Part shown: piece after piece, positions 7,172 to 64,000 of the stretch
How positions within the stretch are numbered: the stretch's first letter is position 1
Layout: each line of letters begins with the position of its first letter
DNA from: Salminus brasiliensis
Lineage: Eukaryota > Chordata > Actinopteri > Characiformes > Bryconidae
Reading direction: 5' to 3'
NCBI RefSeq assembly: GCF_030463535.1
Contig: NC_132881.1
Coordinates: 9,098,526 to 9,162,525 of the forward strand
Length of the DNA: 64,000 bases
Made by a program: the position numbers and the translations under genes
The notes under the pieces: generated by a model
What the model saw: only the letters and a program-made list of their open reading frames with translations
The model's database searches: none
What the model was told of the DNA's origin: nothing

Positions 7172-7192
7172 GTCTGTATCTTCACTCCTTCT

Positions 7193-7202: not shown

Positions 7203-7205
7203 CTT

Positions 7206-17947: not shown

Positions 17948-18364
17948 TGTTGTGGTTCTTCTACTTCTTCGGAGGAGGACTTCTTTTGAAAGGAGACTCG
18001 TGACCACCGTCTTTCAATTGTAACAATGAAACATTTTATTCCAAACAAAAGTACAGTGTGGAAGGAGTCTGCCAATTCTGGGTGCCCTTCTTCTCTCTCT
18101 CCCAGACAAAGGAATACCTTATGTTTTATACCCTACTATACGTCATATGTTGTTGGACTGTTCTCATATGCAGGATGTCTGCATTTCATCCATAAGGAAT
18201 CATCATTAGCCCCCACCATTACTTACATGGTCTACGTGCTGCAGACACAGCTGGACCCCTTAACATCTCTTTTACGTTATGTTTGTTCAGTTCATGTACA
18301 GTTTCTCACATTAGGTCTGGGAACGGAACCCACTCTCCTTTCCAAGTATACCCCATCGGCCTCA
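17948..18364. other. Unassigned; LTR-like end at 17948
   Basis: Begins TGTTGTGG. On the minus strand it carries an AATAAA about 95 bp before an ACCACAACA end, which is how a minus-strand LTR would finish. The other LTR end could not be placed. A 161-codon plus-strand frame starts at 18026 and runs to 18511, through the first acceptor-like and donor-like sites of the satellite array. It matches no family I recognise and is the longest frame in the window not explained by a transposon. Confidence 0.35.
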
Positions 18365-18837
18365 CTATATTCAGTTTCCATACCTGTATTGACTTTTTTT
18401 TGTGTTACAGGTTCTCAGGAACCCCATCAACCCAACAAATGTATTTTCATCAGCAACTGTGTGGCTCACTGTCTGAACTGTGTGTTCTGCAACTCTGTAA
18501 CATGTAAGTGATCATTTAGTTTCTATTGATGCATTGACTTTATTGTCTTACAGGCTTTCTGGACCCCAAGACCCCACCCCCCTCCTCCATCCTAATGGTG
18601 GGTCCAGCCGAGAAGGGTCTGTGCATCTGCAACTGTGTGTGGTTCGCTGTCCATCATTCTGCAACTCTGTAACTGGTAAGTGATCGTTCAGTTTGTATAC
18701 ATGTATTGCCTTTTTTTGTCTTACACGCTTTCAGGACCAATGGTTCCCCCCTTCCTGATGGTGTATACAGCCAACAATGGTCTGTCCATTGCTACGGTGT
18801 GTGGCTCACTATCAATCTGTCTGCAAGTGTGTAACAG
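18365..18837 (+). repeat. Divergent edge units of the satellite
   Basis: Three atypical units at the left border. The first has a truncated intron-like part with acceptor TGTGTTACAG and exon-like 18411-18503 (93 nt). Next come intron-like 18504-18553 (50 nt, GTAAGTGA ... TTACAG) and exon-like 18554-18675 (122 nt, C-rich insert CCCCACCCCCCTCC). The third is a D-type unit starting at 18676 whose acceptor is mutated (TTACAC). All share the CAACTGTGTG...GGTTCGCT/GGCTCACT core with the main array, so they are relatives and not chance neighbours. Confidence 0.85.
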
Positions 18838-21800
18838 GTAGGTGATCATTCAGTTTCTATACATGTATTTTTTTTGTCTCACAGGTTTTTCGGACTGCAT
18901 GTACCAAGAGTCTGTGCATCTGCAACTGTGTGTGACTCACTACTATCTTTCTGCAAGTGTGTGACAGGTTGGTGATTATTCAGTTTCTATACATGTATTG
19001 ACTTTCTTTTTTTGTCTTACAGGTTTTTCGGATCGAATGACCCCCTCCCTTCCTGATGGTAGATCTGTCCTTCAAATGTCTGTGCATCTGCAACTGTGTG
19101 TGACTCGCTACTCTCTGTCAGCAAGTGTGTAACAGGTAGGTGATCATTCAGTTTCTATACATGTATTGACTTTCTTTTTTTGTCTTACAGGTTTTTCGGA
19201 CCGCATGAACCAAGGGTCTGTGCATCTGCAACTTTGTGTGACTCGCTACTATCTGTTTGCAAGTGAGTAACAGGTAGGTGATCATTCAGTTTCTATACAT
19301 GTATTGACTTTCTTTTTTTGTCTTACAGGTTTTTCGGACCGCATGAACCAAGGGTCTTTCCATCGCCACTGTGTGTGTGGCTCGCTATAGATCTGTTTGC
19401 AAATGTGTAACAGGTAGGTGATCATTCAGTTTCTATACATGTATTGACTTTCTTTTTTGTCTTACAGGTTTTTCGGACTACATGATCCAAGCGTCTGTGC
19501 ATCTGCAACTGTGTGTGACTCGCTACTCTCTGTCTGCAAGTGTGTAACAGGTAGGTGATCATTCAGTTTCTATACAAGTTTTTACTTTCTTTCTTTGTCT
19601 TAAAGGTCTTTCGGACCACATGAACCAAGGGTCTGTGCATCTGCAACTGTGTGTGACTCGCTACTATCTGTCTGCAAGTGTGTAACAGGTAAGTGATCAT
19701 TCAGTTTCTATACATGTATTGACTTTCTTTTTTTGTTTTACAGGTTTTTCGGACCGCATGGACCAAGGGTCTTTCCATTGCCACTGTGTCTGTGGCTCGC
19801 TATCAATCTGTCTGCAAGTGTGTAACAGGTAGGTGATCATTCAGTTTCTATACATGTATTGACTTTCTTTTTTTGTCTTACAGGTTTTTCGGACCGCATG
19901 AACCAAGGGTCTTTCCATTGCCACTGTGTGTGTGGCGCGCTATCAATCTGTCTGCAAGTGTGTAACAGGTTGGTGATCATTCAGTTTCTATACATGTTTT
20001 GACTTTCTTTTTTTTCTTACAGATTTTTCGGACCGCATGAACTAAGGGTCTGTGCATCTGCAACTGTGTGTGACTCGCTACTCTCTGTCTGCAAGTGTGT
20101 AACAGGTTGGTGATCATTCAGTTTCTATACATGTTTTGACTTTCTTTTTTTTCTTACAGATTTTTCGGACCGCGTGAACTAAGGGTCTTTGCATCTGCAA
20201 CTGTGTGTGACTCGCTACTATCTGTCTGCAAGTGTGTAACAGGTTGGTGATCATTCAGTTTCTATACATGTTTTGACTTTCTTTTTTTGTCACATAGGTT
20301 TTTCGGACCACATGAACCAAGGGTCTGTATATCTGCAACTGTTACTCGCTACTATCTGTATGCAAGTGTGTTACAGGTACGTGATCATTCTGTTTCTATA
20401 CATGTATTGACTTTCTTTTTTTGTCTTACAGGTTTTTCGGACCGCATGAACCAAGGGTCTTTCCATTGCCACTGTGTGTGGCGCGCTATCAATCTGTCTG
20501 CAAGTGTGTAACAGGTAGGTGATCATTCAGTTTCTATCCATGTATTGACTTTCTTTTTTTTCTTACAGATTTTTCAGACCGCATGAACTAAGGGTCTGTG
20601 CATCTGCAACTGTGTGTGACTCGCTACTATCTGTCTGCAAGTGTGTAACAGGTTGGTGATCATTCAGTTTCTATACATGTATTGACTTTCTTTGTTTGTC
20701 TTATAGGTTTTTCAGACCACATAAACCAAGGGTCTGTATATCTGCAAGTGTGTGACTCGTTACCAACTGTCTGCAAGTGTGTAACAGATAAGTCATCATT
20801 CAGTTTCTATACATGTATTGACTTTCTTTTTTTTGTCTTAAAGGTCATTCAGACCTCATGAACCAAGGGTCTGTGCATCTGCAACTGTGTGTGACTCGCT
20901 ACTCTCTGTCTGCAAGTGTGTAACAGGTAGGTGATCATTCAGTTTCTATACATGTATTGAGTTTCTTTTTTTGTCTTACAGGTTTTTCGGACCTCATGAA
21001 CCAAGGGTCTTTCGAGTGCCACTGTGTGTGTGGTGCGCTATCAATCTTTCTGCAAGTGTGTAACAGGTAGGTGATCATTCAGTTTCTATACATGTATTGA
21101 CTTTCTTTTTTTGTCTTAAACGTCTTTCGGACCACATGAACCAAGGGTCTGTGCATCTGCAACTGTGTGTGACTCGCTACTATCTTTCTGCAAGTGTGTA
21201 ACAGGTAGGTGATCATTCAGTTTCTATACGTTTTGACTTTCTTTTTTTGTCTTACAGGTTTTTCGGACCGCATGAACCAAGAGTCTGTGCATCTGCAACT
21301 GTGTGTGACTCGCTACTATCTTTCTGCAAGTGTGTAACAGGTTGGTGATCATTCAGTTTCTATACATATATTGCCTTTTTGTTGTCTTACAGGCTTTCAG
21401 GACCAATGGCTCCCCCCTTCCTGATGATGCATACAGCCAACAAGGGTCTGTCCATTGCAACTGTGTGTGGCTCGCTATCAATCTGTCTCCAAGTGTGTAA
21501 CAGGTAGGTGATCATTCAGTTTCTATACATGTATTGACTTTCTGTTTTTTGTCTTACAGGTTTTTCGGACCGCATGAACCAAGGGTCTGTGCATCTGCAA
21601 CTGTGTGTGACTCGCTACTATCTGTCTGCAAGTTTGTAACAGGTTGGAGATCATTCAGGTTCTGTAAATGTATTGACTTTCTTTTTTTGTCTTAAAGGTT
21701 TTTCGAACCGCATGAACCAAGGGTCTTTCGAGTGCCACTGTGTGTGTGGCTCACTATCTATCTGTCTGCAAGTGTGTAACAGGTAGGGGATCATTCAGTT

Positions 21801-24800
21801 TCTATACATGTATTGACTTTCTTTTTTTGTCTTATAGGTTTTTCAGACCACATAAACCAAGGGTCTGTATATCTGCAACTGTGTGTGACTCGTTACCATC
21901 TGTCTGCAAGTGTGTAACAGATAAGTGATCATTCAGTTTCTATACATGTATTGACTTTCTTTTTTTTGTCTTAAAGGTCATTCGGACCGCATGAACCAAG
22001 GGTCTGTGCATCTGCAACTGTGTGTGATTCGCTACTATCTGTCTGCAAGTGTGTAACAGGTTGGTGATAATTCAGTTTCTATACATGTATTGACTTTCTT
22101 TTTTTGTCGTACAGGTTTTTCGGACCGCAAGAACCAAGGGTCTGTGCATCTGCAACTGTGTGTGACTCGCTACTATCTTTCTGCAAGTGTGTAACAGGTT
22201 GGTGATCATTCAGTTTCTATACATATATTGCCTTTTTGTTGTCTTACAGGCTTTCAGGACCAATGGCTCCCCCCTTCCTGATGATGCATACAGCCAACAA
22301 GGGTCTGGCCATTGCAACTGTGTGTGGCTCGCTATCAATCTGTCTCCAAGTGTGTAACAGGTAGGTGATCATTCAGTTTCTATACATGTATTGACTTTCT
22401 GTTTTTTGTCTTACAGGTTTTTCGGACCGCATGAACCAAGGGTCTTTCGAGTGCCACTGTGTGTATGGTGCGCTATCAATCTTTCTGCAAGTGTGTAACA
22501 GGTAGGTGATCATTCAGTTTCTATACATGTATTGACTTTCTTTGTTTGTCTTATAGGTTTTTCAGACCACATAAACCAAGGGTCTGTATATCTGCAACTG
22601 TGTGTGACTCGTTACCATCTGTCTGCAAGTGTGTAACAGGTAAGTGATCATTCAGTTTCTATACATGTATTGACTTTCTTTTTTTGTCTTACAGGTTTTT
22701 CGGACCGCATGAACCAAGGGTCTTTCCATTGCGACTGTGTGTGTGGCTCGCTATCAATCTGTCTGCAAGTGTGTAACAGGTAGGTGATCATTCAGTTTCT
22801 ATACGTGTATTGACTTTCTTTTTTTGTCTTACAGGTTTTTCGGACCGCATGAACCAAGGGTCTGTGCATCTGCAACTGTGTGTGACTCGCTACTATCTGT
22901 CTGCAAGTGTGTAACAGGTAAGTGATCATTCAGTTTCTATACATGTATTGACTTTCTTTTTTGTCTTATAGGTTTTTCAGACCACATAAACCAAAGGTCT
23001 GTATATCTGCAACTGTGTGTGACTCGCTACTCTCTGTCTGCAAGTGTGTAACAGGTAAGTGATCATTCAGTTTCTATACATGTATTGACTTTCTTTTTTT
23101 GTCTTACAGGTTTTTCGGACCGCATGAACCAAGGGTCTGTGCATCTCCAACTGTGTGTGACTCGCTACTATCTGTCTGCAAGTGTGTAACAGGTAGGGGA
23201 TCATTCAGTTTCTATACATGTATTGACTTTCTTTTTTTGTCTTACAGGTTTTTCGGACCACATGAACCAAGGGTCTTTCCATTGCCACTGTGTGTGTGGC
23301 TCGCTATCAATCTGTCTGCAAGTGTGTAACAGGTAGGTGATCATTCAGTTTCTATACATGTATTGACTTTCTTTTTTTGTCTTACAGGTTTTTCGGACCT
23401 CATGAACCAAGGGTCTGTGCATCTGCAACTGTGTGTGACTCGCTACTATCTGTCTGCAAGTGTGTAACAGGTAGGTGATCATTCAGTTTCTATACATGTA
23501 TTGAGTTTCTTTTTTTGTCTTATAGGTTTTTCGGACCACATGAACCAAGGGTCTGTATATCTGCAACTGTGTGTGACTCGCTACCATCTGTCTGCAATAG
23601 TGTAACAGATAAGTGATCATTCAGTTTCTATACATGTATTGACTTTCTTTTTTTGTCTTACAGGTTTTTCGGACCGCATGAACCAAGGGTCTTTCCATAG
23701 CCACTGTGTGTGGCGCGCTATCAATCTTTCTGCAAGTGTGTAACAGGTAGATGATCATTCAGTTTCTATACATGTATTGACTTTCTTTTTTTGTCCTACA
23801 GGTTTTTCGGACATCCTGAACCAAGGGTCTGTGCATCTCCAACTGTGTGTGACTCGCTACTATCTGTCTGCAAGTGTGTAACAGGTAGAGGATCATTCAG
23901 TTTCTATACATGTATTGACTTTCTTTGTTTGTCTTATAGGTTTTTCAGACCACATAAACCAAGGGTCTGTATATCTGCAACTGTGTGTGACTCGTTACCA
24001 TCTGTCTTCAAGTGTGTAACAGATAAGTGATCATTCAGTTTCTATACATGTATTGACTTTCTTTTTTTTGTCTTAAAGGTCTTTCGGACCGCCTGAACCA
24101 AGGGTCTGTGCATCTGCAACTGTGTTTGACTCGCTACTATCTGTCTGCAAGTGTGTAACAGGTAAGTGATCATTCAGTTTCTATACATGTATTGAGTTTC
24201 TTTTTTTGTCTTACAGGTTTCTCGGACCACATGAACCAAGGGTCTTTCCATTGCCACTGTGTGTGTGGCGCGCTATCAATCTGTCTGCAAGTGTGTAACA
24301 GGTAGGTTATCATTCAGATTCTATACATGTATTGACTTTCTTTTTTTATCTTACAGGTTTTTCGGACATCATGAACCAAGGGTCTGTGCATCTCCAACTG
24401 TGTGTGACTCGCTACTATCTGTCTGCAAGTGTGTAACAGGTAGGGGATCATTCAGTTTCTATACATGTATTGACTTTCTTTGTTTGTCTTATTGGTTTTT
24501 CAGACCACATAAACCAAGGGTCTGTATATCTGCAAGTGTGTGACTCGTTACCATCTGTCTGCAAGTGTGTAACAGATAAGTGATCATTCAGTTTCTATAC
24601 ATGTATTGACTTTCTTTTTTTTGTCTTAAAGGTCATTCGGACCGCATGAACCAAGGGTCTGTGCATCTGCAACTGTGTGTGACTCGCTACTATCTGTCTG
24701 CAAGTGTGTAACAGGTAAGTGATCATTCAGTTTCTATACATGTATTGACTTTCTTTGTTTGTCTTATAGGTTTTTCAGACCACATAAACCAAGGGTCTGT

Positions 24801-27800
24801 ATATCTGCAACTGTGTGTGACTCGTTACCATCTGTCTGCAAGTGTGTAACAGGTAGGTGATCATTCAGTTTCTATACATTTATTGACTTTCTTTTTTTGT
24901 CTTACAGGTTTTTCGGACCACATGAACAAGGGTCTGTGCATCTCCGACTGTGTGTGACTCGCTACTCTCTGTCTGCAAGTGTGTAACAGGTAAGTGATCA
25001 TTCAGTTTCTATACATGTATTGAGTTTCTTTTTTTGTCTTACAGGTTTCTCGGACCACATGAACCAAGGGTCTTTCCATTGCCACTGTGTGTGTGGCGCG
25101 CTATCAATCTGTCTGCAAGTGTGTAACAGGTAGGTTATCATTCAGATTCTATACATGTATTGACTTTTTTTTTATCTTACAGGTTTTTCGGACATCATGA
25201 ACCAAGGGTCTGTGCATCTCCAACTGTGTGTGACTCGCTACTATCTGTCTGCAAGTGTGTAACAGGTAGGGGATCATTCAGTTTCTATACATGTATTGAC
25301 TTTCTTTGTTTGTCTTATTGGTTTTTCAGACCACATAAACCAAGGGTCTGTATATCTGCAAGTGTGTGACTCGTTACCATCTGTCTGCAAGTGTGTAACA
25401 GATAAGTGATCATTCAGTTTCTATACATGTATTGACTTTCTTTTTTTTGTCTTAAAGGTCATTCGGACCGCATGAACCAAGGGTCTGTGCATCTGCAACT
25501 GTGTGTGACTCGCTACTATCTGTCTGCAAGTGTGTAACAGGTAAGTGATCATTCAGTTTCTATACATGTATTGACTTTCTTTGTTTGTCTTATAGGTTTT
25601 TCAGACCACATAAACCAAGGGTCTGTATATCTGCAACTGTGTGTGACTCGTTACCATCTGTCTGCAAGTGTGTAACAGGTAGGTGATCATTCAGTTCCTA
25701 TACATTTATTGACTTTCTTTTTTTGTCTTACAGGTTTTTCGGACCACATGAACAAGGGTCTGTGCATCTGCGACTGTGTGTGACTCGCTACTCTCTGTCT
25801 GCAAGTGTGTAACAGGTAGGTGATCATTCAGTTTCTATACATGTATTGAGTTTCTTTTTTTGTCTGACAAGTTTTTCGGACCGCATGAACCAAGGGTCTG
25901 TGCATCTGCGACTGTGTGTGACTCGCTACTCTCTGTCTGCAAGTGTGTAACAGGTTGGTGATCATTCAGTTTCTATACATGTATTGAGTTTCTTTTTTTG
26001 TCTGACAAGTTTTTCGGACATCATGAACCAAGGGTCTGTGCATCTCTAACTGTGCTTGACTCGCTACTTTCTGTCTGCAAAAGTGTAACAGGTAGGTGAT
26101 CATTCAGTTTCTATACATGTATTGACTTTCTTTTTTTTGTCTTAAACGTCTTTCGGACCACATGAACCAAGGGTCTGTGCATCTGCAACTGTGTGTGACT
26201 CGCTACTATCTTTCTGCAAGTGTGTAACAGGTAGGTGATCATTCAGTTTCTATACGTTTTGACTTTCTTTTTTTGTCTTACAGGTTTTTCGGACCGCATG
26301 AACCAAGGGTCTGTGCATCTGCAACTGTGTGTGATTCGCTACTATCTGTCTGCAAGTGTGTAACAGGTTGGTGATAATTCAGTTTCTATACATGTATTGA
26401 CTTTCTTTTTTTGTCGTACAGGTTTTTCGGACCGCATGAACCAAGGGTCTGTGCATCTGCAACTGTGTGTGACTCGCTACTATCTTTCTGCAAGTGTGTA
26501 ACAGGTTGGTGATCATTCAGTTTCTATACATATATTGCCTTTTTGTTGTCTTACAGGCTTTCAGGACCAATGGCTCCCCCCTTCCTGATGATGCATACAG
26601 CCAACAAGGGTCTGTCCATTGCAACTGTGTGTGGCTCGCTATCAATCTGTCTCCAAGTGTGTAACAGGTAGGTGATAATTCAGTTTCTATACATGTATTG
26701 ACTTTCTGTTTTTTGTCTTACAGGTTTTTCGGACCGCATGAACCAAGGGTCTGTGCATCTGCAACTGTGTGTGACTCACTACTATCTGTCTGCAAGTTTG
26801 TAACAGGTTGGAGATCATTCAGGTTCTGTACATGTACTGACTTTCTTTTTTTGTCTTAAAGGTTTTTCGAACCGCATGAACCAAGGGTCTTTCCATTGCT
26901 ACTGTGTGTGTGGCTCGCTTTCAATCTGTCTGCAAGTGTATAACAGGTAGGTTATCATTCAGTTTCTATACATGTATTGACTTTCTTTTTTTGTTTTAAA
27001 GGTCTTTCGGAGCTCATGAACCAAGGGTCTTTCCATTGCCACTGTGTGTGTAGCGAGCTATCAATCTTTCGGCAAGTGTGTAACAGGTAGGTTATCATTC
27101 AGTTTCTATATATGTATTGACTTTCTTTTTTTATCTTACAGGTTTTTCGGACATCATGAACCAAGGGTCTGTGCATCTCCAACTGTGTGTGACTCGCTAC
27201 TATCTGTCTGCAAGTGTGTAACAGGTAGGGGATCATTCAGTTTCTATACATGTATTGACTTTCTTTGTTTGTCTTATAGGTTTTTCAGACCACATAAACC
27301 AAGGGTCTGTATATCTGCAACTGTGTGTGACTAGTTACCATCTGTCTGCAAGTGTGTAACAGATAAGTGATCATTCAGTTTCTATACATGTACTGACTTT
27401 ATTTTTTTTGTCTTACAGGTTTTTCGGACCGCATGAACCAAGGGTCTGTGCATCTGCAACTGTGTGTGACTCGCTACTATCTGTCTGCAAGTGTGTAACA
27501 GGTAGGTGATCATTCAGTTTCTATACATGTATTGACTTTCTTTTTTTTTGTCTTAAAGGTCTTTCGGACCGCATAAACCAAGGGTCTGTATATCTGCAAC
27601 TGCGTGTGACTCGTTACCATCTGTCTGCAAGTGTGTAACAGGTAGGTGATCATTCAGTTTCTATACATTTATTGACTTTCTTTTTTTGTCTTACAAGTTT
27701 TTCGGACCACATGAACAAGGGTCTGTGCATCTGCAACTGTGTGTGACTCGCTACTCTATGTCTGCAAGTGTGTAACAGGTAGGTGATCATTCAGTTTCTA

Positions 27801-30800
27801 TACATGTATTGAGTTTCTTTTTTTGTCTGACAAGTTTTTTGGACCGCATGAACCAAGGGTCTTTCGAGTGCCACTGTGTGTGTGGCTCGCTATCTATCTG
27901 TCTGCAAGTGTGTAACAGGTAGGGGATCATTCAGTTTCTATACATGTATTGACTTTCTTTTTTTGTCTTACAGGTTTTTCTGACCACATGAACCAAGGGT
28001 CTGTGCATCTGCAACTGTGTGTGACTCGCTACTATCTGTCTGCAAGTGTGTAACAGGTAAGTGATCATTCAGTTTCTATACATGTATTGACTTTCCTTTT
28101 TTGTTTTAAAGGTCTTTCGGAGCTCATGAACCAAGGGTCTGTGCATCTGCAACTGTGTGTGACTCGCTACTATCTTTCTGCAAGTGTGTAACAGGTAGGT
28201 GATCATTCAGTTTCTATACATGTATTGACTTTCTTTTTTTGTCGTACAGGTTTTTCGGACCGCATGAACCAAGGGTCTGTGCATCTGCAACTGTGTGTGA
28301 CTCGCAACTATCTTTCTGCAAGTGTGTAACAGGTTGGTGATCATTCAGTTTCTATACATATATTGCCTTTTTGTTGTCTTACAGGCTTTCAGGACCAATG
28401 GCTCCCCCCTTCCTGATGATGCATACAGCCAACAAGGGTCTGTCCATTGCAACTGTGTGTGGCTCGCTATCAATCTGTCTGCAAGTGTGTAACAGGTAGG
28501 TGATCGTTCAGTTTCTATACATGTATTGACTTTCTTTGTCTTATAGGTTTTTCAGACCACATAAACCAAGGGTCTGTATATCTGCAACTGTGGTTGACTC
28601 GTTACCATCTGTCTGCAAGTGAGTAACAGGTAAGTGATCATTCAGTTTCTATACATGTATTGACTTTCTTTTTTTTGTCTTAAAGGTCTTTCGGACCGCA
28701 TGAACCAAGGGTCTTTCCATTGCCACTGTGTGTGTGGCTCGCTATCAATCTGTCTGCAAGTGTGTGACAAGTAGGTGATCATTCAGTTTCTATACGTGTA
28801 TTGACTTTCTTTTTTTGTCTTACACGTTTTTCGGACCGCATGAACCAAGGGTCTGTGCATCTGCAACTGTGTGTGACTCGCTACTATCTGTCTGCAAGTG
28901 TGTTACAGGTAAGTGATCATTCAGTTTCTATACATGTATTGACTTTCTTTGTTTGTCTTATAGGTTTTTCAGACCACATAAACCAAGGGTCTGTATATCT
29001 GCAACTGTGTGTGACTCTCTACTCTCTGTCTGCAAGTGTGTAACAGGTAGGTGATCATTCAGTTTCTGTACATGTATTGAGTTTCTTTTTTTTTCTGACA
29101 AGTTTTTAGGACCGCATGAACCAAGGGTCTTTCGAGTGCCACTGTGTGTGTGGTGCGCTATCAATCTTTTTGCAAGTGTGTAACAGGTAGGTGATCATTC
29201 AGTTTCTATACATGTATTGACTTTCTTTATTTGTCTTATAGGTTTTTCAGAACACATAAACCAAGGGTCGGTATATCTGCAACTGTGTGTGACTCGTTAC
29301 CATCTGTCTGCAAGTGTGTAACAGGTAAGTGATCATTCAGTTTCTATACATGTATTGACTTTCTTTTTATTTGTCTTACAGGTTTTTCGGACCACATGAA
29401 CCAGGGGTCTGTGCATCTGCAACTGTGTTTGACTCGCTAATATCTGTCTGCAAGTGTGTAACAGGTAGGTGATCATTCAGTTTCTATACATGTATTGAGT
29501 TTCTTTTTTTGTCTGACAAGTTTTTCGGACATCATGAACCAAGGGTCTGTGCATCTCTAACTGTGCTTGACTCGCTACTATCTGTCTGCAAAAGTGTAAC
29601 AGGTAGGTGATCATTCAGTTTCTATACATGTATTGACTTTCTTTTTTTTGTCTTAAACGTCTTTCGGACCACATGAACCAAGGGTCTGTGCATCTGCAAC
29701 TGTGTGTGACTCGCTACTATCTTTCTGCAAGTGTGTAACAGGTAGGTGATCATTCAGTTTCTATACGTTTTGACTTTCTTTTTTTGTCTTACAGGTTTTT
29801 CGGACCGCATGAACCAAGGGTCTGTGCATCTGCAACTGTGTGTGATTCGCTACTATCTGTCTGCAAGTGTGTAACAGGTTGGTGATAATTCAGTTTCTAT
29901 ACATGTATTGACTTTCTTTTTTTGTCGTACAGGTTTTTCGGACCGCATGAACCAAGGGTCTGTGCATCTGCAACTGTGTGTGACTCGCTACTATCTTTCT
30001 GCAAGTGTGTAACAGGTTGGTGATCATTCAGTTTCTATACATATATTGCCTTTTTGTTGTCTTACAGGCTTTCAGGACCAATGGCTCCCCCCTTCCTGAT
30101 GATGCATACAGCCAACAAGGGTCTGTCCATTGCAACTGTGTGTGGCTCGCTATCAATCTGTCTCCAAGTGTGTAACAGGTAGGTGATAATTCAGTTTCTA
30201 TACATGTATTGACTTTCTGTTTTTTGTCTTACAGGTTTTTCGGACCGCATGAACCAAGGGTCTGTGCATCTGCAACTGTGTGTGACTCACTACTATCTGT
30301 CTGCAAGTTTGTAACAGGTTGGAGATCATTCAGGTTCTGTACATGTACTGACTTTCTTTTTTTGTCTTAAAGGTTTTTCGAACCGCATGAACCAAGGGTC
30401 TTTCCATTGCTACTGTGTGTGTGGCTCGCTTTCAATCTGTCTGCAAGTGTATAACAGGTAGGTTATCATTCAGTTTCTATACATGTATTGACTTTCTTTT
30501 TTTGTTTTAAAGGTCTTTCGGAGCTCATGAACCAAGGGTCTTTCCATTGCCACTGTGTGTGTAGCGAGCTATCAATCTTTCGGCAAGTGTGTAACAGGTA
30601 GGTTATCATTCAGTTTCTATATATGTATTGACTTTCTTTTTTTATCTTACAGGTTTTTCGGACATCATGAACCAAGGGTCTGTGCATCTCCAACTGTGTG
30701 TGACTCGCTACTATCTGTCTGCAAGTGTGTAACAGGTAGGGGATCATTCAGTTTCTATACATGTATTGACTTTCTTTGTTTGTCTTATAGGTTTTTCAGA

Positions 30801-33800: not shown

Positions 33801-34900
33801 TCGCTACTATCTTTCTGCAAGTGTGTAACAGGTTGGTGATCGTTCAGTTTCTATACATATATTGCCTTTTTGTTGTCTTACAGGCTTTCAGGACCAATGG
33901 CACCCCCTTCCTGATGATGCATACAGCCAACAAGGGTCTGTCCATTGCAACTGTGTGTGGCTCGCTATCAATCTGTCTCCAAGTGTGTAACAGGTAGGTG
34001 ATCATTCAGTTTCTATACATGTATTGACTTTCTGTTTTTTGTCTTACAGGTTTTTCGGACCGCATGAACCAAGGGTCTGTGCATCTGCAACTGTGTGTGA
34101 CTCGCTACTATCTGTCTGCAAGTGTGTAACAGGTAAGTGATCATTCAGTTTCTATACATGTATTGACTTTCCTTTTTTGTCTTACAGGTTTTTCGGACCA
34201 CATGAACCAAGGGTCTGTGCATCTGCAACTGTGTGTGACTCGCTAATATCTGTCTGCAAGTGTGTAACAGGTAAATGATCATTCAGTTTCTATACATGTA
34301 TTGACTTTCTTTTTTTGTCTTACAGGTTTTTCGGACCGCATGAACCAAGGGTCTTTCCATTGCCACTGTGTGTGTGGCGCGCTATCAATCTGTCTGCAAG
34401 TGTGTAACAGGTAAGTGATCATTCAGTTTCTATACATGTATTGACTTTCTTTTTTTGTTTTAAAGGTCTTTCGGAGCTCATGAACCAAGGGTCTGTGCAT
34501 CTGCAACTGTGTTTGACTCGCTACTATCTGTCTGCAAAAGTGTAACAGGTAAGTGATCATTCAGTTTCTATACATGTTTTGACTTTCTTTTTTTGTCGTA
34601 CAGGTTTTTCGGACCGCATGAACCAAGGGTCTGTGCATCTGCAACTGTGTGTGACTCGCTACTATCTTTCTGCAAGTGTGTAACAGGTTGGTGATCATTC
34701 AGTTTCTATACATATATTGCCTTTTTGTTGTCTTACAGGCTTTCAGGACCAATGGCTCCCCCCTTCCTGATGATGCATACAGCCAACAAGGGTCTGTCCA
34801 TTGCAACTGTGTGTGGCTCGCTATCAATCTGTTTGCAAGTGTGTAACAGGTAGGTGATCATTCAGTTTCTATACATGTATTGACTTTCTGTTTTTTGTCT
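18838..34900 (+). repeat. Left satellite domain with D units
   Basis: Mostly A, B and C units with D-type units whose exon-like parts start at 21393, 22250, 26557, 28385, 30068, 32035, 33029, 33884 and 34739. Where D units are regular they are 855-857 bp apart (five ordinary units plus one of 163 bp). The domain also holds an approximately 828-bp (six-unit) duplication anchored at 24221 and 25049, and an approximately 3.51-kb tandem duplication anchored at 26011 and 29522. Confidence 0.85.
25985..33006 (+). repeat. 3.51-kb tandem higher-order duplication
   Basis: Two neighbouring blocks (about 25985-29495 and 29496-33006) repeat the same series of unit variants 3511 bp apart, including the rare CATCTCTAACTGTGCTTGAC unit and the GTAGCGAGCTATC unit (27050 and 30561). 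Differences are few single-base changes and one or two added or lost units. Confidence 0.8.
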
Positions 34901-34999
34901 TACAGGTTTTTCGGACCGCATGAACCAAGGGTCTGTGCATCTGCAACTGTGTGTGACTCGCTACTATCTGTCTGCAAGTTTATAACAGGTTGGTGATCA

Positions 35000-52900: not shown

Positions 52901-54200
52901 GTGACTCGCTACTATCTGTCTGCAAGTGTGTAACAGGTAGGGGATCATTCAGTTTCTATACATGTATTGACTTTCTTTTTTTGTCTTACAGGTTTTTCGG
53001 ACCACATGAACCAAGGGTCTTTTCTATTGCCACTGTGTGTATGGCTCGCTATCAATCTGTCTGCAAGTGTGTAACAGGTAGGTGATCATTCAGTTTCTAT
53101 ACGTGTATTGACTTTCTTTTTTTGTCTTACAGGTTTTTCGGACCGCATGAACCAAGGGTCTGTGCATCTGCAACTGTGTGTGACTCGCTACTATCTGTCT
53201 GCAAGTGTGTAACAGGTTGGTGATCATTCAGTTTCTATACATGTATTGACTTTCTTTTTTTTTGTCTTAATGGTCTTTCGGACCGCATAAACCAAGGGTC
53301 TGTATATCTGCAACTGTGTGTGACTCGTTACCATCTGTCTGCAAGTGTGTAACAGGTAGGTGATCATTCAGTTTCTATACATTTATTGACTTTCTTTTTT
53401 TGTCTTACAGGTTTTTCGGACCACATGAACAAGGGTCTGTGCATCTGCAACTGTGTGTGACTCGCTACTCTCTGTCTGCAAGTGTGTAACAGGTAGGTGA
53501 TCATTCAGTTTCTATACATGTATTGAGTTTCTTTTTTTGTCTGACAAGTTTTTTGGACCGCATGAACCAAGGGTCTTTCGAGTGCCACTGTGTGTGTGGC
53601 TCGCTATCTATCTGTCTGCAAGTGTGTAACAGGTAGGGGATCATTCAGTTTCTATACATGTATTGACTTTCTTTTTTTGTCTTACAGGTTTTTCTGACCA
53701 CATGAACCAAGGGTCTGTGCATCTGCAACTGTGTGTGACTCGCTACTATCTGTCTGCAAGTGTGTAACAGGTAAGTGATCATTCAGTTTCTATACATGTA
53801 TTGACTTTCCTTTTTTGTCTTACAGGTTTTTCGGACCACATGAGCCAAGGGTCTGTGCATCTGCAACTGTGTGTGACTTGCTAATATCTGTCTGCAAGTG
53901 TGTAACAGGTAAGTGATCATTCAGTTTCTATACATGTATTGACTTTCTTTTTTTGTTTTAAAGGTCTTTCGGAGCTCATGAACCAAGGGTCTGTGCATCT
54001 GCAACTGTGTGTGACTCGCTACTATCTTTCTGCAAGTGTGTAACAGGTAGGTGATCATTCAGTTTCTATACATGTATTGACTTTCTTTTTTTGTCGTACA
54101 GGTTTTTCGGACCGCATGAACCAAGGGTCTGTGCATCTGCAACTGTGTGTGACTCGCTACTATCTTTCTGCAAGTGTGTAACAGGTTGGTGATCATTCAG
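35000..54200 (+). repeat. Central satellite domain, D-free, multi-unit periods
   Basis: No D-type unit in about 19.5 kb. A rare unit with GTTACTCGCTACTATC and donor GTACGTGA marks the periods, at 37988, 39366, 41574, 44887, 47094 and 49439. The spacings are 1378, 2208, 3313, 2207 and 2345 bp, which are 10, 16, 24, 16 and 17 units. The 24-unit step contains an internal repeat of 1105 bp (8 units; compare 41895 with 43000, and 42731 with 43836). Identity between blocks is very high, which indicates recent amplification. Confidence 0.85.
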
Positions 54201-57200
54201 TTTCTATACATATATTGCCTTTTTGTTGTCTTACAGGCTTTCAGGACCAATGGCTCCCCCCTTCCTGATGATGCATACAGCCAACAAGGGTCTGTCCATT
54301 GCAACTGTGTGTGGCTCGCTATCAATCTGTCTGCAAGTGTGTGACAGGTAGGTGATCATTCAGTTTCTATACGTGTATTGACTTTCTTTTTTTGTCTTAC
54401 AGGTTTTTCGGACCGCATGAACCAAGGGTCTGTGCATCTGCAACTGTGTGTGACTCGCTACTATCTGTCTGCAAGTGTGTTACAGGTAAGTGATCATTCA
54501 GTTTCTATACATGTATTGACTTTCTTTGTTTGTCTTATAGGTTTTTCAGACCACATAATCCAAGGGTCTGTATATCTGCAACTGTGTGTGACTCGTTACC
54601 ATCTGTCTGCAAGTGTGTAACAGGTAAGTGATCATTCAGTTTCTATACATGTATTGAGTTTCTTTTTTTGTCTGACAAGTTTTTAGGACGCATGAACCAA
54701 GGGTCTTTCGAGTGCCATTGTGTGTGTGGTGCGCTATCAATCTTTCTGCAAGTGTGTAACAGGTAGGTGATCATTCAGTTTCTATACATGTATTGACTTT
54801 CTTTGTTTGTCTTATAGGTTTTTCAGACCACATAAACCAAGGGTCTGTATATCTGCAACTGTGTGTGACTCGTTACCATCTGTCTGCAAGTGTGTAACAG
54901 GTAAGTGATCATTCAGTTTCTATACATGTATTGACTTTCTTTTTATTTGTCTTACAGGTTTTTCGGACCGCATGAACCAGGGGTCTGTGCATCTGCAACT
55001 GTGTTTGACTCGCTAATATCTGTCTGCAAGTGTGTAACAGGTAGGTGATCATTCAGTTTCTATACATGTATTGACTTTCTTTTTTTGTCTTACAGGTTTT
55101 TCGGACCGCATGAACCAAGGGTCTTTCCATTGCGACAGTGTGTGTGGCTCGCTATCAATCTGTCTGCAAGTGTGTAACAGGTAGGTGATCATTCAATTTC
55201 TATACGTGTATTGACTTTCTTTTTTTGTCTTACAGGTTTTTAGGACCGCATGAACCAAGGGTCTGTGCATCTGCAACTGTGTGTGACTCGCTACTATCTG
55301 TCTGCAAGTGTGTAACAGGTAAGTGATCATTCAGTTTCTATACATGTATTGACTTTCTTTGTTTGTCTTATAGGTTTTTCAGACCACATAAACCAAGTGT
55401 CTTTATATCTGCAACTGTGTGTGACTCGTTACCATCTGTCTGCAAGTGTGTAACAGGTAAGTGATCATTCAGTTTCTATACATGTATTGACTTTCTTTTT
55501 TTGTCTTACAGGTTTTTCGGACCGCATGAACCAAGGGTCTGTGCATCTGCAACTGTGTTTGACTCGCTATCAATCTGTCTGCAAGTGTGTAACAGGTAGG
55601 TGATCATTCAGTTTCTATACATGTATTGACTTTCTTTTTTTTGTCTTAAACGTCTTTCGGACCACATGAACCAAGGGTCTGTACATCTGCAACTGTGTGT
55701 GACTCGCTACTATCTTTCTGCAAGTGTGTAACAGGTAGGTGATCATTCAGTTTCTATACGTTTTGACTTTCTTTTTTTGTCTTACAGGTTTTTCGGACCG
55801 CATGAACCAAGGGTCTGTGCATCTGCAACTGTGTGTGACTCGCTACTATCTTTCTACAAGTGTGTAACAGGTTGGTGATCATTCAGTTTCTATGCATATA
55901 TTGCCTTTTTATTGTCTTACAGGCTTTCGGGACCAATGGCTCCCCCCTTCCTGATGATGCATACAGCCAACAAGGGTCTGTCCATTGCAACTGTGTGTGG
56001 CTCGCTATCAATCTGTCTCCAAGTGTGTAACAGGTAGATGATCATTCAGTTTCTATACATGTATTGATTTTCTGTTTTTTGTCTTACAGGTTTTTCGGAC
56101 CGCATGAACCAAGGGTCTTTCGAGAGCCACTGTGTGTGTGGTGCGCTATCAATCTTTCTGCAAGTGTGTAAAAGGTAGGTGATCATTCAGTTTCTATACA
56201 TGTATTGACTTTCTTTGTTTGTCTTATAGGTTTTTCAGACCACATAAACCAAGGGTCTGTGCATCTGCAACTGTGTTTGATTCGCTACTGTCTGTCTGCA
56301 AGTGTGTAACAGGTAGGTGATCATTCATTTTCTATACATGTATTGACTTTCTGTTTTTTGTCTTAAACGTCTTTCGGACCACATGAACCAAGGGTCTGTG
56401 CATCTGCAACTGTGTGTGACTCGCTACTATCTTTCTGCAAGTGTGTAACAGGTAGGTGATCATTCAGTTTCTATACGTTTTGACTTTCTTTTTTTGTCTT
56501 ACAGGTTTTTCGGACCGCATGAACCAAGGGTCTGTGCATCTGCAACTGTGTGTGATTCGCTACTATCTGTCTGCAAGTGTGTAACAGGTTGGTGATAATT
56601 CAGTTTCTATACATGTATTGACTTTCTTTTTTTGTCTTACAGGTTTTTCGGACCGCATGAACCAAGGGTCTGTGCATGTGCAACTGTGTGTGACTCGCTA
56701 CTATCTTTCTGCAAGTGTGTAACAGGTTGGTGATCGTTCAGTTTCTATACATATATTGCCTTTTTGTTGTCTTACAGGCTTTAAGGACCAATGGCTCCCC
56801 CCTTCCTGATGATGCATACAGCCAACAAGGGTCTGTCCATTGCAACTGTGTGTGGCTCACTATCAATCTGTCTCCAAGTGTGTAACAGGTAGGTGATCAT
56901 TCAGTTTCTATACATGTATTGACTTTCTTTTTTTGTCTTACAGGTTTTTCGGACCACATGAACCAAGGGTCTTTCCATCGCCACTGTGTGTGTGGCGCGC
57001 TATCAATCTGTCTGCAAGTGTGTAACAGGTAAGTGATCATTCAGTTTCTATACATGTATTGACTTTCTTTTTTTGTTTTAAAGGTCTTTCGGAGCTCATG
57101 AACCAAGGGTCTGTGCATCTGCAACTGTGTTTGACTCGCTACTATCTGTCTGCAAAAGTGTAACAGGTAAGTGAACATTCAGTTTCTATACATGTATTGA

Positions 57201-58214
57201 CTTTCTTTTTTTTGTCTTAAACGTCTTTCGGACCACATGAACCAAGGGTCTGTGCATATGCAACTGTGTGTGACTCGCTACTATCTTTCTGCAAGTGTGT
57301 AACAGGTAGGTGATCATTCAGTTTCTATACATGTATTGAGTTTCTTTTTTTGTCGTACAGGTTTTTCGGACCGCATGAACCAAGGGTCTGTGCATCTGCA
57401 ACTTTGTGTGACTCGCTACTATCTTTCTGCAAGTGTGTAACAGGTTGGTGATCATTCAGTTTCTATACATATATTGCCTTTTTGTTGTCTTACAGGCTTT
57501 CAGGACCAATGGCTCCCCCCTTCCTGATGATGCATACAGCCAACAAGGGTCTGTCCATTGCAACTGTGTGTGGCTCGCTATCAATCTGTCTGCAAGTGTG
57601 TAACAGGTAGGTGATCATTCAGTTTCTATACATGTATTGACTTTCTGTTTTTTGTCTTACAGGTTTTTCGGACCGCATGAACCAAGGGTCTGTGCATCTG
57701 CAACTGTGTGTGACTCGCTACTATCTGTCTGCAAGTTTGTAACAGGTTGGTGATCATTCAGGTTTTGTACATGTATTGAGTTTCTTTTTTTGTCTTACAG
57801 GTTTTTCGGAGCTCATGAACCAAGGGTCTGTGCATCTGCAACTGTGTGTCACTCGCTACTATCTGTCTGCAAAAGTGTAACAGGTAGGTGATCATTCAGT
57901 TTCTATACATTTATTGACTTTCTTTTTTTTGTCTTAAACGTCTTTCGGACCACATGAACCAAGGGTCTGTGCATCTGCAACTGTGTTTGACTCGCTACTA
58001 TCTGTCTGCAAGTTTGTAACAGGTAAGTGATCATTCAGTTTCTATACATGTATTGACTTTCTTTTTTTGTCTTACAGGTTTTTCGGACCGCATGAACCAA
58101 GGGTCTGTGCATCTGCAACTGTGTTTGACTCGCTACTATCTGTCTGCAAGTATGTTACAGGTAGGTGATTATTCAGTTTCTATACATGTATTGACTTTCT
58201 TTTTTGTTTTACAG

Positions 58215-58331
58215 GTTCTTAAGAAGTCCATCAACCTCTTCTTCTCCCTGAAGGTGTATCCTTCTAACATATATATTTTCATCTGCAACTGTGTGTGGTT
58301 CGCTGTCCATCATTCTACAACTCTTTAACAG
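58215..58331 (+). repeat. E-type exon-like unit, copy 1
   Basis: 117-nt exon-like segment between TTTTACAG and GTAAGTGA. It starts GTTCTTAAGAAGTCCATC and shares its 3' part (ATCTGCAACTGTGTGTGGTT, then CGCTGTCCATCATTCT) with the edge units at 18411-18675. It is a multiple of three with one open frame to near its end, but no protein family is recognised. Confidence 0.8.
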
Positions 58332-59958
58332 GTAAGTGATCATTCAGGTTCTATATATATTGCCTTTTTGTTGTCTTACAGGCTTTCAGGACCAATGGCT
58401 CCCCCCTTCCTGATGGTGCATACAGCCAACAAGGGTCTGTCCATTGCAATTGTGTGTGTGGCTCGCTATCAATCTGTATGCAAGTGTGTAACAGGTAGGT
58501 GATCATTCAGTTTCTATACATGTATTGACTTTCTTTTTTTGTCTTACAGGTTTTTTGGACCGCATGAAGCTAGTGTCTGTGCATCTGCAACTGTGTGTGA
58601 CTCGCTACTATCTTTCTGCAAGTGTGTAACAGGTTGGTGATCATTCAGTTTCTATACATGTATTGACTTTTTTTTTTTTTGTCTTAAAGGTCTTTCGGAC
58701 CGCATGAACTAAGGGTCTGTGCATCTGCAACTGTGTTTGACTCGCTACTATCTGTCTGCAAGTGTGTAACAGGTAAGTGATCATTCAGTTTCTATACATG
58801 TATTGACTTTCTTTGTTTGTCTTATAGGTTTTTCAGACCACATAAACCAAGGGTCTGTATATCTGCAACTGTGTGTGACTCGTTACCATCTGTCTGCAAG
58901 TGTGTAACAGGTAGGTGATCATTCAGTTTCTATACATTTATTGACTTTCTTTTTTTGTCTTACAGGTTTTTCGGACCACATGAACAAGGGTCTGTGCATC
59001 TGCAACTGTGTGTGACTTGCTACTCTCTGTCTGCAAGTGTGTAACAGGTAGGTGATCATTCAGTTTCTATACATGTATTGACTTTCTTTTTTTGTCTTAC
59101 AGGCTTTCAGGACCGCATGAACCAAGGGTCTGTGCATCTGCAACTGTGTGTGACTCGCTACTATCTTTCTGCAAGTGTGTAACAGGTTGGTGATCATTCA
59201 GTTTCTATACATATATTGCCTTTTTGTTGTCTTACAGGCTTTCAGGACCAATGGCTCCCCCCCTCCTGATGATGCATACAGCCAACAAGGGTCTGTCCAT
59301 TGCAACTGTGTGTGGCTCGCTATCAATCTGTCTGCAAGTGTGTAACAGGTAGGTGATCATTCAGTTTCCATACATGTATTGACTTTCTGTTTTTTGTCTT
59401 ACAGGTTTTTCGGACCGCATGAACCAAGGGTCTGTGCATCTGCAACTGTGTGTGACTCGCTACTATCTGTCTGCAAGTTTATAACAGGTTGGTGATCATT
59501 CAGGTTCTGTACATGTATTGACTTTCTTTTTTTGTCTTAAAGGTTTTTCGAACCGCAAGAACCAAGGGTCTTTCCATTGCCACTGTGTGTGTGGCTCGCT
59601 ATCAATCTGTCTGCAAGTGTGTAACAGGTAGGTGATCATTCAGTTTCTATACATATTTTGACTTTCTTTTTTTGTCTTACAGGTTTTTCGGAGCTCATGA
59701 ACCAAGGGTCTGTGCATCTGCAACTGTGTGTCACTCGCTACTATCTGTCTGCAAAAGTGTAACAGGTAGGTGATCATTCAGTTTCTATACATTTATTGAC
59801 TTTCTTTTTTTTGTCTTAAACGTCTTTCGGACCACATGAACCAAGGGTCTGTGCATCTGCAACTGTGTGTGACTCGCTACTATCTGTCTGCAAGTATGTT
59901 ACAGGTAGGTGATCATTCAGTTTCTATAAATGTATTGACTTTCTTTTTTGTTTTACAG

Positions 59959-60075
59959 GTTCTTAAGAAGTCCATCAACCTCTTCTTTTCCCTGAAGGTG
60001 TATCCTTCTAACATATATATTTTCATCTGCAACTGTGTGTGGTTCGCTGTCCATCATTCTACAACTCTTTAACAG
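59959..60075 (+). repeat. E-type exon-like unit, copy 2
   Basis: Near-identical to 58215-58331 and 1744 bp further on, within a tandemly duplicated block that also includes the following D-type unit. Confidence 0.8.
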
Positions 60076-61898
60076 GTAAGTGATCATTCAGGTTCTATAT
60101 ATATTGCCTTTTTGTTGTCTTACAGGCTTTCAGGACCAATGGCTCCCCCCTTCCTGATGGTGCATACAGCCAACAAGGGTCTGTCCATTGCAACTGTGTG
60201 TGTGGCTCGCTATCAATCTGTATGCAAGTGTGTAACAGGTAGGTGATCATTCAGTTTCTATACATGTATTGACTTTCTTTTTTTGTCTTACAGGTTTTTC
60301 GGACCGCATGAACCAAGGGTCTTTCCATTGCCACTGTGTGTGTGGCTTGCTATCAATCTGTATGCAAGTGTGTAACAGGTAGGTGATCATTCAGTTTCTA
60401 TACATGTATTGACTTTCTTTTTTTGTCTTACAGATTTTTCGGACCTCATGAACCAAGGGTCTGTGCATCTCCAACTGTGTGTGACTCGCTACTATCTGTC
60501 TGCAAGTGTGTAACAGGTAGGTGATCATTCAGCTTCTATACATGTATTGACTTTCTTCTTTTTGTCTTACAGGTTTTTCGGACTGCATGAACCAAGGGTC
60601 TCTGCATCTGCAACTGTGTTTGAATCGCTACTATCTGTCTGCAAGTGTATAAAAGGTAAGTGATCATTCAGTTTCTATACATGTATTGAGTTTCCTTTTT
60701 TGTCTTACAGGTTTTTCGGACCGCATGAACCAAGGGTCTGTGCATCTGCAACTGTGTTTGACTCGCTACTATCTGTCTGCAAGTGTGTAACAGGTAGGTG
60801 ATCATTCAGTTTCTATACATGTTTTGACTTTCTTTTTTTGTCATATAGGTTTTTCGGACCACATGAACCAAGGGTCTGTATATCTGCAACTGTGTGACTC
60901 GCTACTATCTGTATGCAAGTGTGTAACAGATAAGTGATCATTCAGTTTCTATACATGTATTGACTTTCTTTTTTTGTCTTACAGGTTTTTCGGACCGCAT
61001 GAACCAAGGGTCTTTCCATTGCCACTGTGTGTGTGGCGCGCTATCAATCTGTATGCAAGTGTGTAACAGGTAGGTGATCATTCAGTTTCTATACATGTAT
61101 TGACTTTCTTTTTTTGTCTTACAGATTTTTCGGACCTCATGAACCAAGGGTCTGTGCATCTCCAACTGTGTGTGACTCGCTACTATCTGTCTGCAAGTGT
61201 GTAACAGGTAGGTGATCATTCAGCTTCTATACATGTATTGACTTTCTTCTTTTTGTCTTACAGGTTTTTCGGACTGCATGAACCAAGGGTCTCTGCATCT
61301 GCAACTGTGTTTGAATCGCTACTATCTGTCTGCAAGTGTATAAAAGGTAAGTGATCATTCAGTTTCTATACATGTATTGAGTTTCCTTTTTTGTCTTACA
61401 GGTTTTTCGGACCGCATGAACCAAGGGTCTGTGCATCTGCAACTGTGTTTGACTCGCTACTATCTGTCTGCAAGTGTGTAACAGGTAGGTGATCATTCAG
61501 TTTCTATACATGTTTTGACTTTCTTTTTTTGTCATATAGGTTTTTCGGACCACATGAACCAAGGGTCTGTATATCTGCAACTGTGTGACTCGCTACTATC
61601 TGTATGCAAGTGTGTAACAGGTAAGTGATCATTCTGTTTCTATACATGTATTGACTTTCTTTTTTTGTCTTACAGGTTTTTCGGACCGCATGAACCAAGG
61701 GTCTTTCCATTGCCACTGTGTGTGTAGCGCGCTATCAATCTGTCTGCAAGTGTGTAACAGGTAGGTGATCATTCACTTTCTATACATGTATTGACTTTCT
61801 TTTTCTGTCTTACAGATTTTTCGAACCTCATGAACCAAGGGTCTGTGCATCTCCAACTGTGTGTGACTCGCTACTATCTGTCTGCAAGTGTGTAACAG

Positions 61899-62036
61899 GT
61901 AGGTGATCATTCAGTTTCTATACATGTATTGACTTTATTTTTTTGTCTTACAGGTTTTTCGGACCGCATGAACCAAGGGTCTGTGCATCTGCAACTGTGT
62001 GTGACTCGCTACTATCTGTCTGCAAGTGTGTAACAG
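61899..62036 (+). repeat. Representative 138-bp satellite unit
   Basis: A clean example: intron-like 61899-61953 (55 nt, donor GTAGGTGA, branch-like TTGAC about 22 nt before the acceptor, TTACAG end) and exon-like 61954-62036 (83 nt, ending GTGTAACAG before the next GT). Two perfect palindromes lie in the intron-like half, TGATCA and ATACATGTAT. Confidence 0.9.
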
Positions 62037-64000
62037 GTTGGTGATCATTCAGTTTCTATACATATATTGACTTTCTTTTTTTTGTCTTAAAGGTCTTTCG
62101 GACCGCATGAACCAAGGGTCTGTGCATCCGCAACTGTGTTTGAGTCGCTACTATCTGTCTGCAAGTGTGTAACAGGTAGGTGATCATTCAGTTTCTATAC
62201 ATGTATTGAGTTTCTTTTTTTGTCTGACAAGTTTTTCGGACCGCATGAACCAAGCGTCTTTCGAGTGCCACTGTGTGTGTGGCTCGCTATCAATCTGTCT
62301 GCAAGTGTGTAACAGGTAGGTGATCATTCAGTTTCTATACATGTATTGACTTTCTTTTTTTGTCTTACTGGTTTTTCGGACCGCATGAACCTAGGGTCTT
62401 TCCATTGCCACTGTGTGTGTGGCTCGCTATCAATCTGTCTGCAAGTGTGTAACAGGTAGGTGATCATTAAGTTTCTATACATGTATTGACTTTCTTTTTT
62501 TGTCTTACAGGTTTTTCCGAACACATGAACTAAGGGTCTGTGCATCTGCAACTGTGTGTGACTCGCTACTATCTGTCTGCAAGTGTGTAACAGATAAGTG
62601 ATCATTCAGTTTCTATACATGTATTGACTTTCTTTTTTTTGACTTACAGGTTTTTCAGACCACATAAACCAATGGTCTGTGCATCTGTAACTGTGTGTGA
62701 CTCGCTACTATCTGTCTGCAAGTGTGTAACAGGTTGGTGATCATTCAGTTTCTATACATGTATTGACTTTCTTTTTTTGTCATATAGATTTTTCGGACCA
62801 CATGAACCAAGGGTCTGTGCATCTGCAACTGTGTGTGACTCGCTAATATCTGTCTGCAAGTGTGTAACAGGTAAGTGATCATTCAGTTTCTATACATGTA
62901 TTGAGTTTCCTTTTTTGTCTTAAAGGTTTTTCGGACCACTTGAACCAAGGGTCTGTGCATCTCCAACTGTGTGTGACTCGCTACTATCTGTCTGCAAGTG
63001 TGTAACAGGTAAGTGATCATTCAGTTTCTATACATGTATTGACTTTCTTTTTTTGTCTTACAGGTTTTTCGGACCGCATGAACCAAGGGTCTGTGCATCT
63101 GCAACTGTGTTTGACTCGCTACTATCTGTCTGCAAGTGTGTAACAGGTTGGTGATCATTCAGTTTCTATACATGTTTTGACTTTCTTTTTTTGTCATATA
63201 GGTTTTTCGGACCACATGAACCAAGGGTCTGTATATCTGCAACTGTGTGACTCGCTACTATCTGTATGCAAGTTTGTAACAGGTAAGTGATCATTCTGTT
63301 TCTATACATGTATTGACTTTCTTTTTTTGTCTTACAGGTTTTTCGGACCGCATGAACCAAGGGTCTGTGCATCTGCAACTGTATGTGACTCGCTAATATC
63401 TGTCTGCAAGTGTGTAACAGGTAAGTGATCATTCAGTTTCTATACATGTATTGACTTTCTTCTTTTTGTCTTACAGGTTTTTCGGACCGCATGAACCAAG
63501 GGTCTCTGCATCTGCAACTGTGTTTGACTCGCTACTATCTGTCTGCAAGTGTGTAACAGTTTGGTGATCATTCAGTTTCTATACATGTTTTGACTTTCTT
63601 TTTTTGTCATATAGGTTTTTCGGACCACATGAACCAAGGGTCTGTATATCTGCAACTGTGTGACTCGCTACTATCTGTATGCAAGTGTGTAACAGGTAAG
63701 TGATCATTCTGTTTCTATACATGTATTGACTTTCTTTTTTTTTGTCTTAAAGGTCTTTCGGACCGCATGAACCAAGGGTCTGTGCATCCGCAACTGTGTT
63801 TGATTCGCTACTCTCTGTCAGCAAGTGTGTAACAGGTAGGTGATCATTCAGTTTCTATACATGTATTGAGTTTCTTTTTTTGTCTTACAGGTTTTTCGGA
63901 CCGCATGAACCAAGGGTCTTTCCATTGCCACTGTGTGTGTGGCGCGCTATCAATCTGTCTGCAAGTGTGTAACAGGTAGGTGATCATTCAGTTTCTATAC

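Follow-up and report, generated by a model that had tools for sequence, protein, structure and literature searches.

What is a satellite in which unit after unit reads like a short intron joined to an exon: a gene with a multiplied exon, the template of a spliced RNA, or a repeat that carries such signals from its origin? The question is raised by a 64,000-nucleotide stretch of the genome of the characiform fish Salminus brasiliensis (contig NC_132881.1, here C4; C4:9098526-9162525). We refer to this whole stretch as the window and number it from its first letter. Its right 45.6 kb (18369..64000, plus strand) proved to be one satellite. On balance we favour the view that a segment resembling an exon and its intron gave rise to this non-coding satellite, and that its splice signals were inherited and have probably not been under selection unit by unit.

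The satellite unit resembles a mini-intron followed by an exon

The array consists of a leftmost edge unit and, as defined by 326 donor anchors, 325 complete units, and it continues past the window, with insertions, to C4:9217424. The original prediction had placed it at 18365..64000; the left border is correct to within a few nucleotides (18369), whereas the right one is the end of the window and not that of the array. Tandem Repeats Finder reported a single array at 19078-64000 with a period of 138 nt and 322.6 copies, and the leftward extension from 19078 to 18369 is made up of more diverged units. Unit length is 130-141 nt in 304 of the 325 units (138 nt, the commonest length, in 122) and 162-172 nt in 21. 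The intron-like part measures 47-58 nt, with 55 nt in 204 units. The exon-like part is 83 nt long in 210 units, 84 nt in 2 and 85 nt in 48 (83-85 nt in 260), 81 nt in 27, 79, 82 or 86 nt in 17, and 110-122 nt in 21. Mean pairwise identity among the 325 units is 0.864 and the order of unit classes recurs along the array, for instance as AEJBAEGEAAIM. As in satellite DNA generally, a short unit is thus repeated head to tail in a long homogenised array with recurring orders of variants.

Most units had been predicted to carry a donor, a TTGAC branch-like site, a T-rich tract, an acceptor and an exon in this order and at fixed spacing, and the counts bear this out in substance. A typical 138-nt unit (19136..19273, plus strand) has its intron at 19136-19190, running from GTAGGTGA through TTGAC to TTACAG, and its exon at 19191-19273 with AACAG at the end. 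The donor is exactly GTAGGTGA or GTAAGTGA in 206 of the 325 units and the acceptor is TTACAG in 194 (both tallies cover 324 units). GT was found at the donor in 303 units, AG at the acceptor in 293, and the two jointly in 272; TTGAC is present in 270 units, and AACAG precedes the donor in 294. The complete signal set, comprising GT, AG, a pyrimidine-rich tract and a YTNAY branch site required to lie 18-40 nt upstream, is carried by 241 units. The A of TTGAC is 33 nt from the donor in 263 of the 270 units that have this motif, and its distance to the exon is 21-24 nt in 266 (22 nt in 179), matching the predicted value of about 22 nt. In GT-AG boundaries, branch site, pyrimidine tract and spacing, the units therefore have the sequence features of U2-type spliceosomal introns, their splicing being putative.

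Several classes of different exon length had been noted to keep these signals, but not every class retains all of them. Class F (16 units) retains GT and AG and has TTGCC in place of TTGAC, so that the complete set is found in none of the 16; an example is the unit at 21341..21503 (plus strand), with an intron of 52 nt and an exon of 111 nt. The donor GT is absent from class L (6 units), class D (23 units) has GT in 15 and AG in 12, and 5 of the 12 class H units have AG at the exact position. As a separate observation, three CpG sites occupy unit positions 62-63, 67-68 and 109-110, and two of the three are often CpA: A occurs at position 63 in 53 of the 325 units and at position 68 in 128, while the third site has G in 317.

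The splice signals exceed chance

The unit consensus was scored for donor, branch site and acceptor combined, with weight matrices approximating vertebrate splice-site frequencies. It reached 31.5, and the minus strand of the unit 14.7. Scoring against shuffled units had been proposed with the original prediction, and none of 1500 dinucleotide shuffles, taken on both strands, came up to the consensus (mean 15.4, standard deviation 2.9, maximum 25.8), a test that concerns one consensus and not 325 independent units. Likewise, 786 circularised 138-nt segments of the window flank stayed below it (maximum 25.4). Median scores of the individual units were 14.5 for the acceptor and 10.0 for the donor (323 of 325 units scored); sites sampled from the matrices themselves scored 8.4 and 8.5. 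Sites of the form MAG/GTRRGT (the slash marking the splice boundary) number 204 on the plus strand of the array, where 1.9 are expected, and 0 on the minus strand. AATAAA and ATTAAA do not occur on the plus strand, against 11.6 expected from a Markov model, and the minus strand has 19 AATAAA. The intron has a G+C content of 31% and the exon one of 49%, a contrast that ranks 7th among the 138 frames of the unit. The splice-like resemblance of the units thus exceeds chance. Nor is a 55-nt intron too short in principle, because splicing, with SPF45, and excision as a lariat in vitro are documented for a 56-nt human HNRNPH1 intron that has conventional signals, according to excerpts of two reports (PMC8363638, PMC4463651).

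Arrays are abundant in the genome and share their flanks

The genome comprises 1.066 Gb in 103 contigs. A probe made of exon end, donor and intron start matched it, with at most 3 mismatches, at 105,335 forward and 41,683 reverse sites (147,018 together); the reversed control matched nowhere. At about 140 nt a unit, we estimate that the satellite amounts to ~20 Mb, or ~2% of the genome, and it has the high copy number at many genome places that characterises satellites. The array that begins in the window spans about 100 kb and is broken by a LINE-like (long interspersed nuclear element) insertion and a retrovirus-like stretch, both named by eye from reading frames. New arrays begin at C4:9265715 and C4:9298027, and further ones were identified on C14 and C7 and, with inversions, near 16.09 Mb of C4. 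The retrovirus-like open frames lie on the minus strand at C4:9211.5-9216.1 kb, between two array blocks.

All 40 scored places (the best 40 of 4228 candidates) contain the 307-nt left edge; 38 of them are on C4 (8.5-18.1 Mb) and 2 on C7, all on the plus strand, and the two leftmost edge exons are both present at every one. Beyond the array, the left flank at 17023..18368 is nearly unbroken in five of eight other copies (four on C4, one on C7), which share at least 1.3 kb with the window at 95-100%, and is in pieces in the remaining three; some of the other copies have up to about 1.8 kb, the full length retrieved, in common with each other at 94-99%. Since flank is shared at 94-100% between copies, the arrays travel with it, as in segmental duplication. 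By eye, the left flank holds a LINE reverse-transcriptase remnant and a stretch like a long terminal repeat on the minus strand. On the other side, the right flank recurs at 40 scored places, of which 11 include the array end and 29 match only from just past it onwards; two of these 29 were examined and have no adjoining array. The right flank was consequently rejected as a 3' exon and is regarded as a repeated sequence that some arrays abut. Alternation of left and right ends along C4 was likewise rejected: among the matches listed, it holds in 47 of 78 steps, and 289 of 5000 shuffles did as well.

Within the array edge itself, the leftmost exon-like segment (18411..18503, plus strand) follows a TTACAG acceptor that ends at 18410, and no donor was recognised by eye at the usual upstream position. 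The diverged edge unit next to it (18504..18675, plus strand) has an intron of 50 nt and an exon of 122 nt. Between 8.5 and 18.1 Mb of C4, a single orientation is common to the 38 left edges and the 39 right-flank places that were scored. At C4 18.054-18.063 Mb, five left edges are spaced at intervals of 1.9-2.4 kb.

Different exons are combined with nearly one intron

Consensus sequences were compared for classes T (117-nt exon; units of at least 169 nt only, 39 of 60), F (113-nt exon; 136 of 182 units, those of 162-165 nt that lack the inverted segment), X (117-nt exon) and S (83- or 85-nt exon; at most 150 distinct units of 138-139 nt). Identity is 94-100% among their introns and 70-97% among their exon bodies, where deletions of about 30 nt occur. 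For T and X, 53 of 54 intron positions are identical and 68 of 97 in the exon body. A class T unit in the window (58161..58331, plus strand; intron 54 nt, exon 117 nt) has a different 5' half of the exon. Because strongly different exon classes share nearly one intron, we interpret this pattern as a product of exchange inside the intron. Positions 34-55 of the intron vary with the class of the downstream exon (mean mutual information.124), and positions 1-33 have values of.015 with the downstream and.013 with the upstream exon, compared with.003 after shuffling. These figures suggest that unequal exchange, concentrated in the intron's 5' half, may shuffle the exons. In seven units at C4:9266-9307 kb part of the exon is inverted while its borders are intact, and their introns are 87-92% like the others.

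Coding potential, selection and alternative explanations

Repeated exon-plus-intron units also occur in genes whose exons are repeated in tandem (NBPF, titin and LPA, for instance), where the reading frame is kept. The array could accordingly be the remnant or living form of a giant gene family, a protein gene with a multiplied symmetric exon, and two observations fit: 13 of the 14 111-nt exons of the window are open in a frame that continues across the junction, and the two leftmost edge exons recur jointly. No frame is kept through the spliced exons, however. When the exons of the window are joined in silico, the three frames contain 305, 327 and 315 stops, and the longest open frame is 196 codons. 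Removal of the same lengths at other offsets gave a longer frame in 19 of 138 cases, the true offset ranks 35th of 138 for fewest stops, and an equally long open frame arose in 355 of 500 shuffles of exon order. Exon length is 2 mod 3 in 785 of 1227 units from C4 and C14 (one of 1228 was dropped for lack of a recognised acceptor). Protein searches with the unspliced frame and the spliced 196-aa frame returned no homologue at E <= 1; from the same database, a piece of the neighbouring Ty3-type retrotransposon returned 692 proteins at E <= 1e-10, many of them from fish. Plus-strand exon translations matched no Pfam family, save for one weak match below the cut-off. A minus-strand frame of 136 aa matched 14 Pfam families at E <= 1, and only DUF6082 (28.7 bits) exceeded its cut-off of 26.7; these matches were set aside as a repeat effect, because the frame of one unit had no Pfam match and that of two units matched DUF6082 below the cut-off. 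The exon chain shows no coding constraint. A coding gene was rejected on the offset and exon-order controls, the stop counts and the empty protein and Pfam searches, and the giant gene family is disfavoured as highly improbable.

The splice signals might instead be accidental, or tandem duplication of an ACAGGT segment might have left two AGGT sites that bracket an intron-like stretch. Intron gain by tandem genomic duplication has been described (PMC4974935, PMC3443670), and both consensus boundaries here read ACAG/GT and are preceded by a common TGTSTWACAG. We nevertheless find this explanation doubtful, as the branch site, pyrimidine tract and donor are strong and well spaced, no shuffle reached the consensus score, and the step in G+C fits an exon/intron border. 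Functional spliced satellite RNA would be a different matter: arrays transcribed on the sense strand could yield a non-coding RNA of many exons, or one that acts as a sponge for U1/U2 factors, a role we judge unlikely. Strong donors and acceptors confined to one strand argue for it, as do a copy number able to rival ordinary introns, the missing AATAAA/ATTAAA on the sense strand of the window array, and an intron that is more alike than the exon across classes and has fewer gaps within them. Against it, the splice core is not specially kept. Its four bases rank 94th, 1st, 45th and 106th of the 138 unit positions for conservation, and the joint presence of GT and AG (83.7% of units) was equalled or bettered by 65 of 137 slid controls, or by 74 of 137 when 221 distinct sequences were used. 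Unit-level selection on the splice core, of which there is no sign, was rejected for this reason. GT and AG are both intact in 1061 of the 1227 units from C4 and C14. Further, ATAAGTGA stands at the donor in 20 of the 325 units, arrays occur in both orientations, and substitutions within classes are nearly alike in intron and exon (identities of.961/.955 in T,.946/.944 in F and.961/.945 in S, from 47, 120 and 120 distinct units). A genome-wide search for retrocopies of the commonest spliced junction, at up to 3 mismatches and with a probe that would detect 1028 of 1185 virtually spliced junctions, found none; this absence speaks against abundant reverse-transcribed spliced RNA, not against splicing. 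The array has only 56 singleton variants, too few for a mutation spectrum as a trace of transcription. It seems similarly improbable that sense-strand transcription in some tissue or stage would lead to recognition and partial splicing of up to hundreds of mini-introns, with the transcript as a U1/U2 sink or a source of exon chains or circles.

Several results weigh against a satellite that is unselected throughout and descended from an exon-intron-like segment. In the window, mean conservation is 0.950 in the intron and 0.924 in the exon, which leans to selection on the intron. Gaps per 100 aligned positions in intron and exon are 0.39 and 4.16 in class T, 0.88 and 2.81 in F, and 1.27 and 1.96 in S, and class S also has fewer substitutions in the intron. 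In 12 edge units the identity to the best type is 92.7% for the intron and 89.0% for the exon (p 0.012, without correction for the best-of-type choice). By within-class gaps and conservation, selection may therefore act on the intron as a whole. The junction probe was built on the S exon start and is restricted to it. Finally, no single-copy parent exon appeared among the best 40 candidates per genome search, in which it would be hidden behind the satellite.

Origin and spread of the satellite

Amplification of a genomic exon with its flanking intron had been put forward as the origin. Signals beyond chance, their restriction to one strand and an intron shared by the classes agree with that origin and support it in part; no parent exon stood among those candidates. 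The founder may have been a genuine exon. The best match to the unit in the window's own flank had an E value of 0.60. Exact matches numbered 0 in IMG/VR for two 24-nt patterns and 0 in bacterial and archaeal genomes for one, and phage records gave seven short matches (E 2 to 7) to a 2-kb piece of the array.

Under the non-coding satellite interpretation, the founder would have been a genomic segment with a short intron and adjoining exon, or a segment with all their signals, and tandem duplication and unequal exchange would have multiplied it. Exchange predominantly within the intron's 5' half would have shuffled exon variants of 79 to 122 nt as cassettes on one intron. Whole arrays and no less than 1.3 to 1.8 kb of their transposon-like flank would then have been copied by segmental duplication across about 9.5 Mb of C4 and to C7. 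The splice signals would be largely intact through the youth and homogenisation of the arrays and not through selection on each copy. Sense-strand transcripts of the arrays, if any, should attract the splicing machinery, and persistence of the satellite would need no splicing.

Neighbouring elements in the window

Five tRNA genes lie at 151-2628 on the minus strand: three tRNA-Thr (AGT), 0.87-0.92 kb apart, and two tRNA-Arg (TCT), which are longer (90-92 nt). Rfam at gathering score gave four tRNAs in the window and nothing in six neighbouring loci. The Ty3-type retrotransposon occupies 2846-7423, also on the minus strand, in separate open pieces. Pfam identified its reverse transcriptase and RNase H-integrase, and a gag-like piece was recognised by eye. 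Its named relatives are mostly in fish, and close matches to one piece come from Prochilodus magdalenae (90%, covering 63% of the query) and Synaphobranchus kaupii (86%, covering 62%).

Comparison with known systems and significance

Introner elements provide many near-identical introns per genome as dispersed insertions in genes. In contrast, the introns described here stand in tandem with exons in the arrays that were read, no search having been made for insertions into genes elsewhere. HNRNPH1 intron 7 (56 nt) is likewise ultra-short with conventional signals, but in the excerpts it is a single intron in a gene and is spliced, whereas the satellite has well over 100,000 copies head to tail and its splicing is putative. 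The CapA satellite of Platyrrhini was suggested to derive from an intron of NOS1AP, a sequence that other mammals have in single copy and that has been amplified within one clade (PMC8210747, excerpt). It is similar in that a satellite has been proposed to come from part of a gene; the excerpt does not describe CapA as a unit of donor, branch site, acceptor and exon, whereas the unit here has both boundaries. The same excerpt presents CharSat01-52, also a fish satellite, from Characiformes, as transcribed, with a 52-nt unit and arrays in non-coding parts of ppfia1 (PMC8210747). It describes no intron-plus-exon form for CharSat01-52, which is unexpanded in several species. Among the matches listed in openly licensed literature we found no satellite of this form.

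For gene annotators, such arrays would be apt to give false many-exon gene models. With most of its units close to complete as splicing substrates, the satellite is a test case for exon-cassette shuffling by exchange in a shared intron, and a natural test of how the cell handles many competing splice sites and of how short an intron can be in a fish. With ~147,000 donor pieces in the genome, even low transcription could affect the splicing machinery, or would reveal silencing that holds this machinery off.

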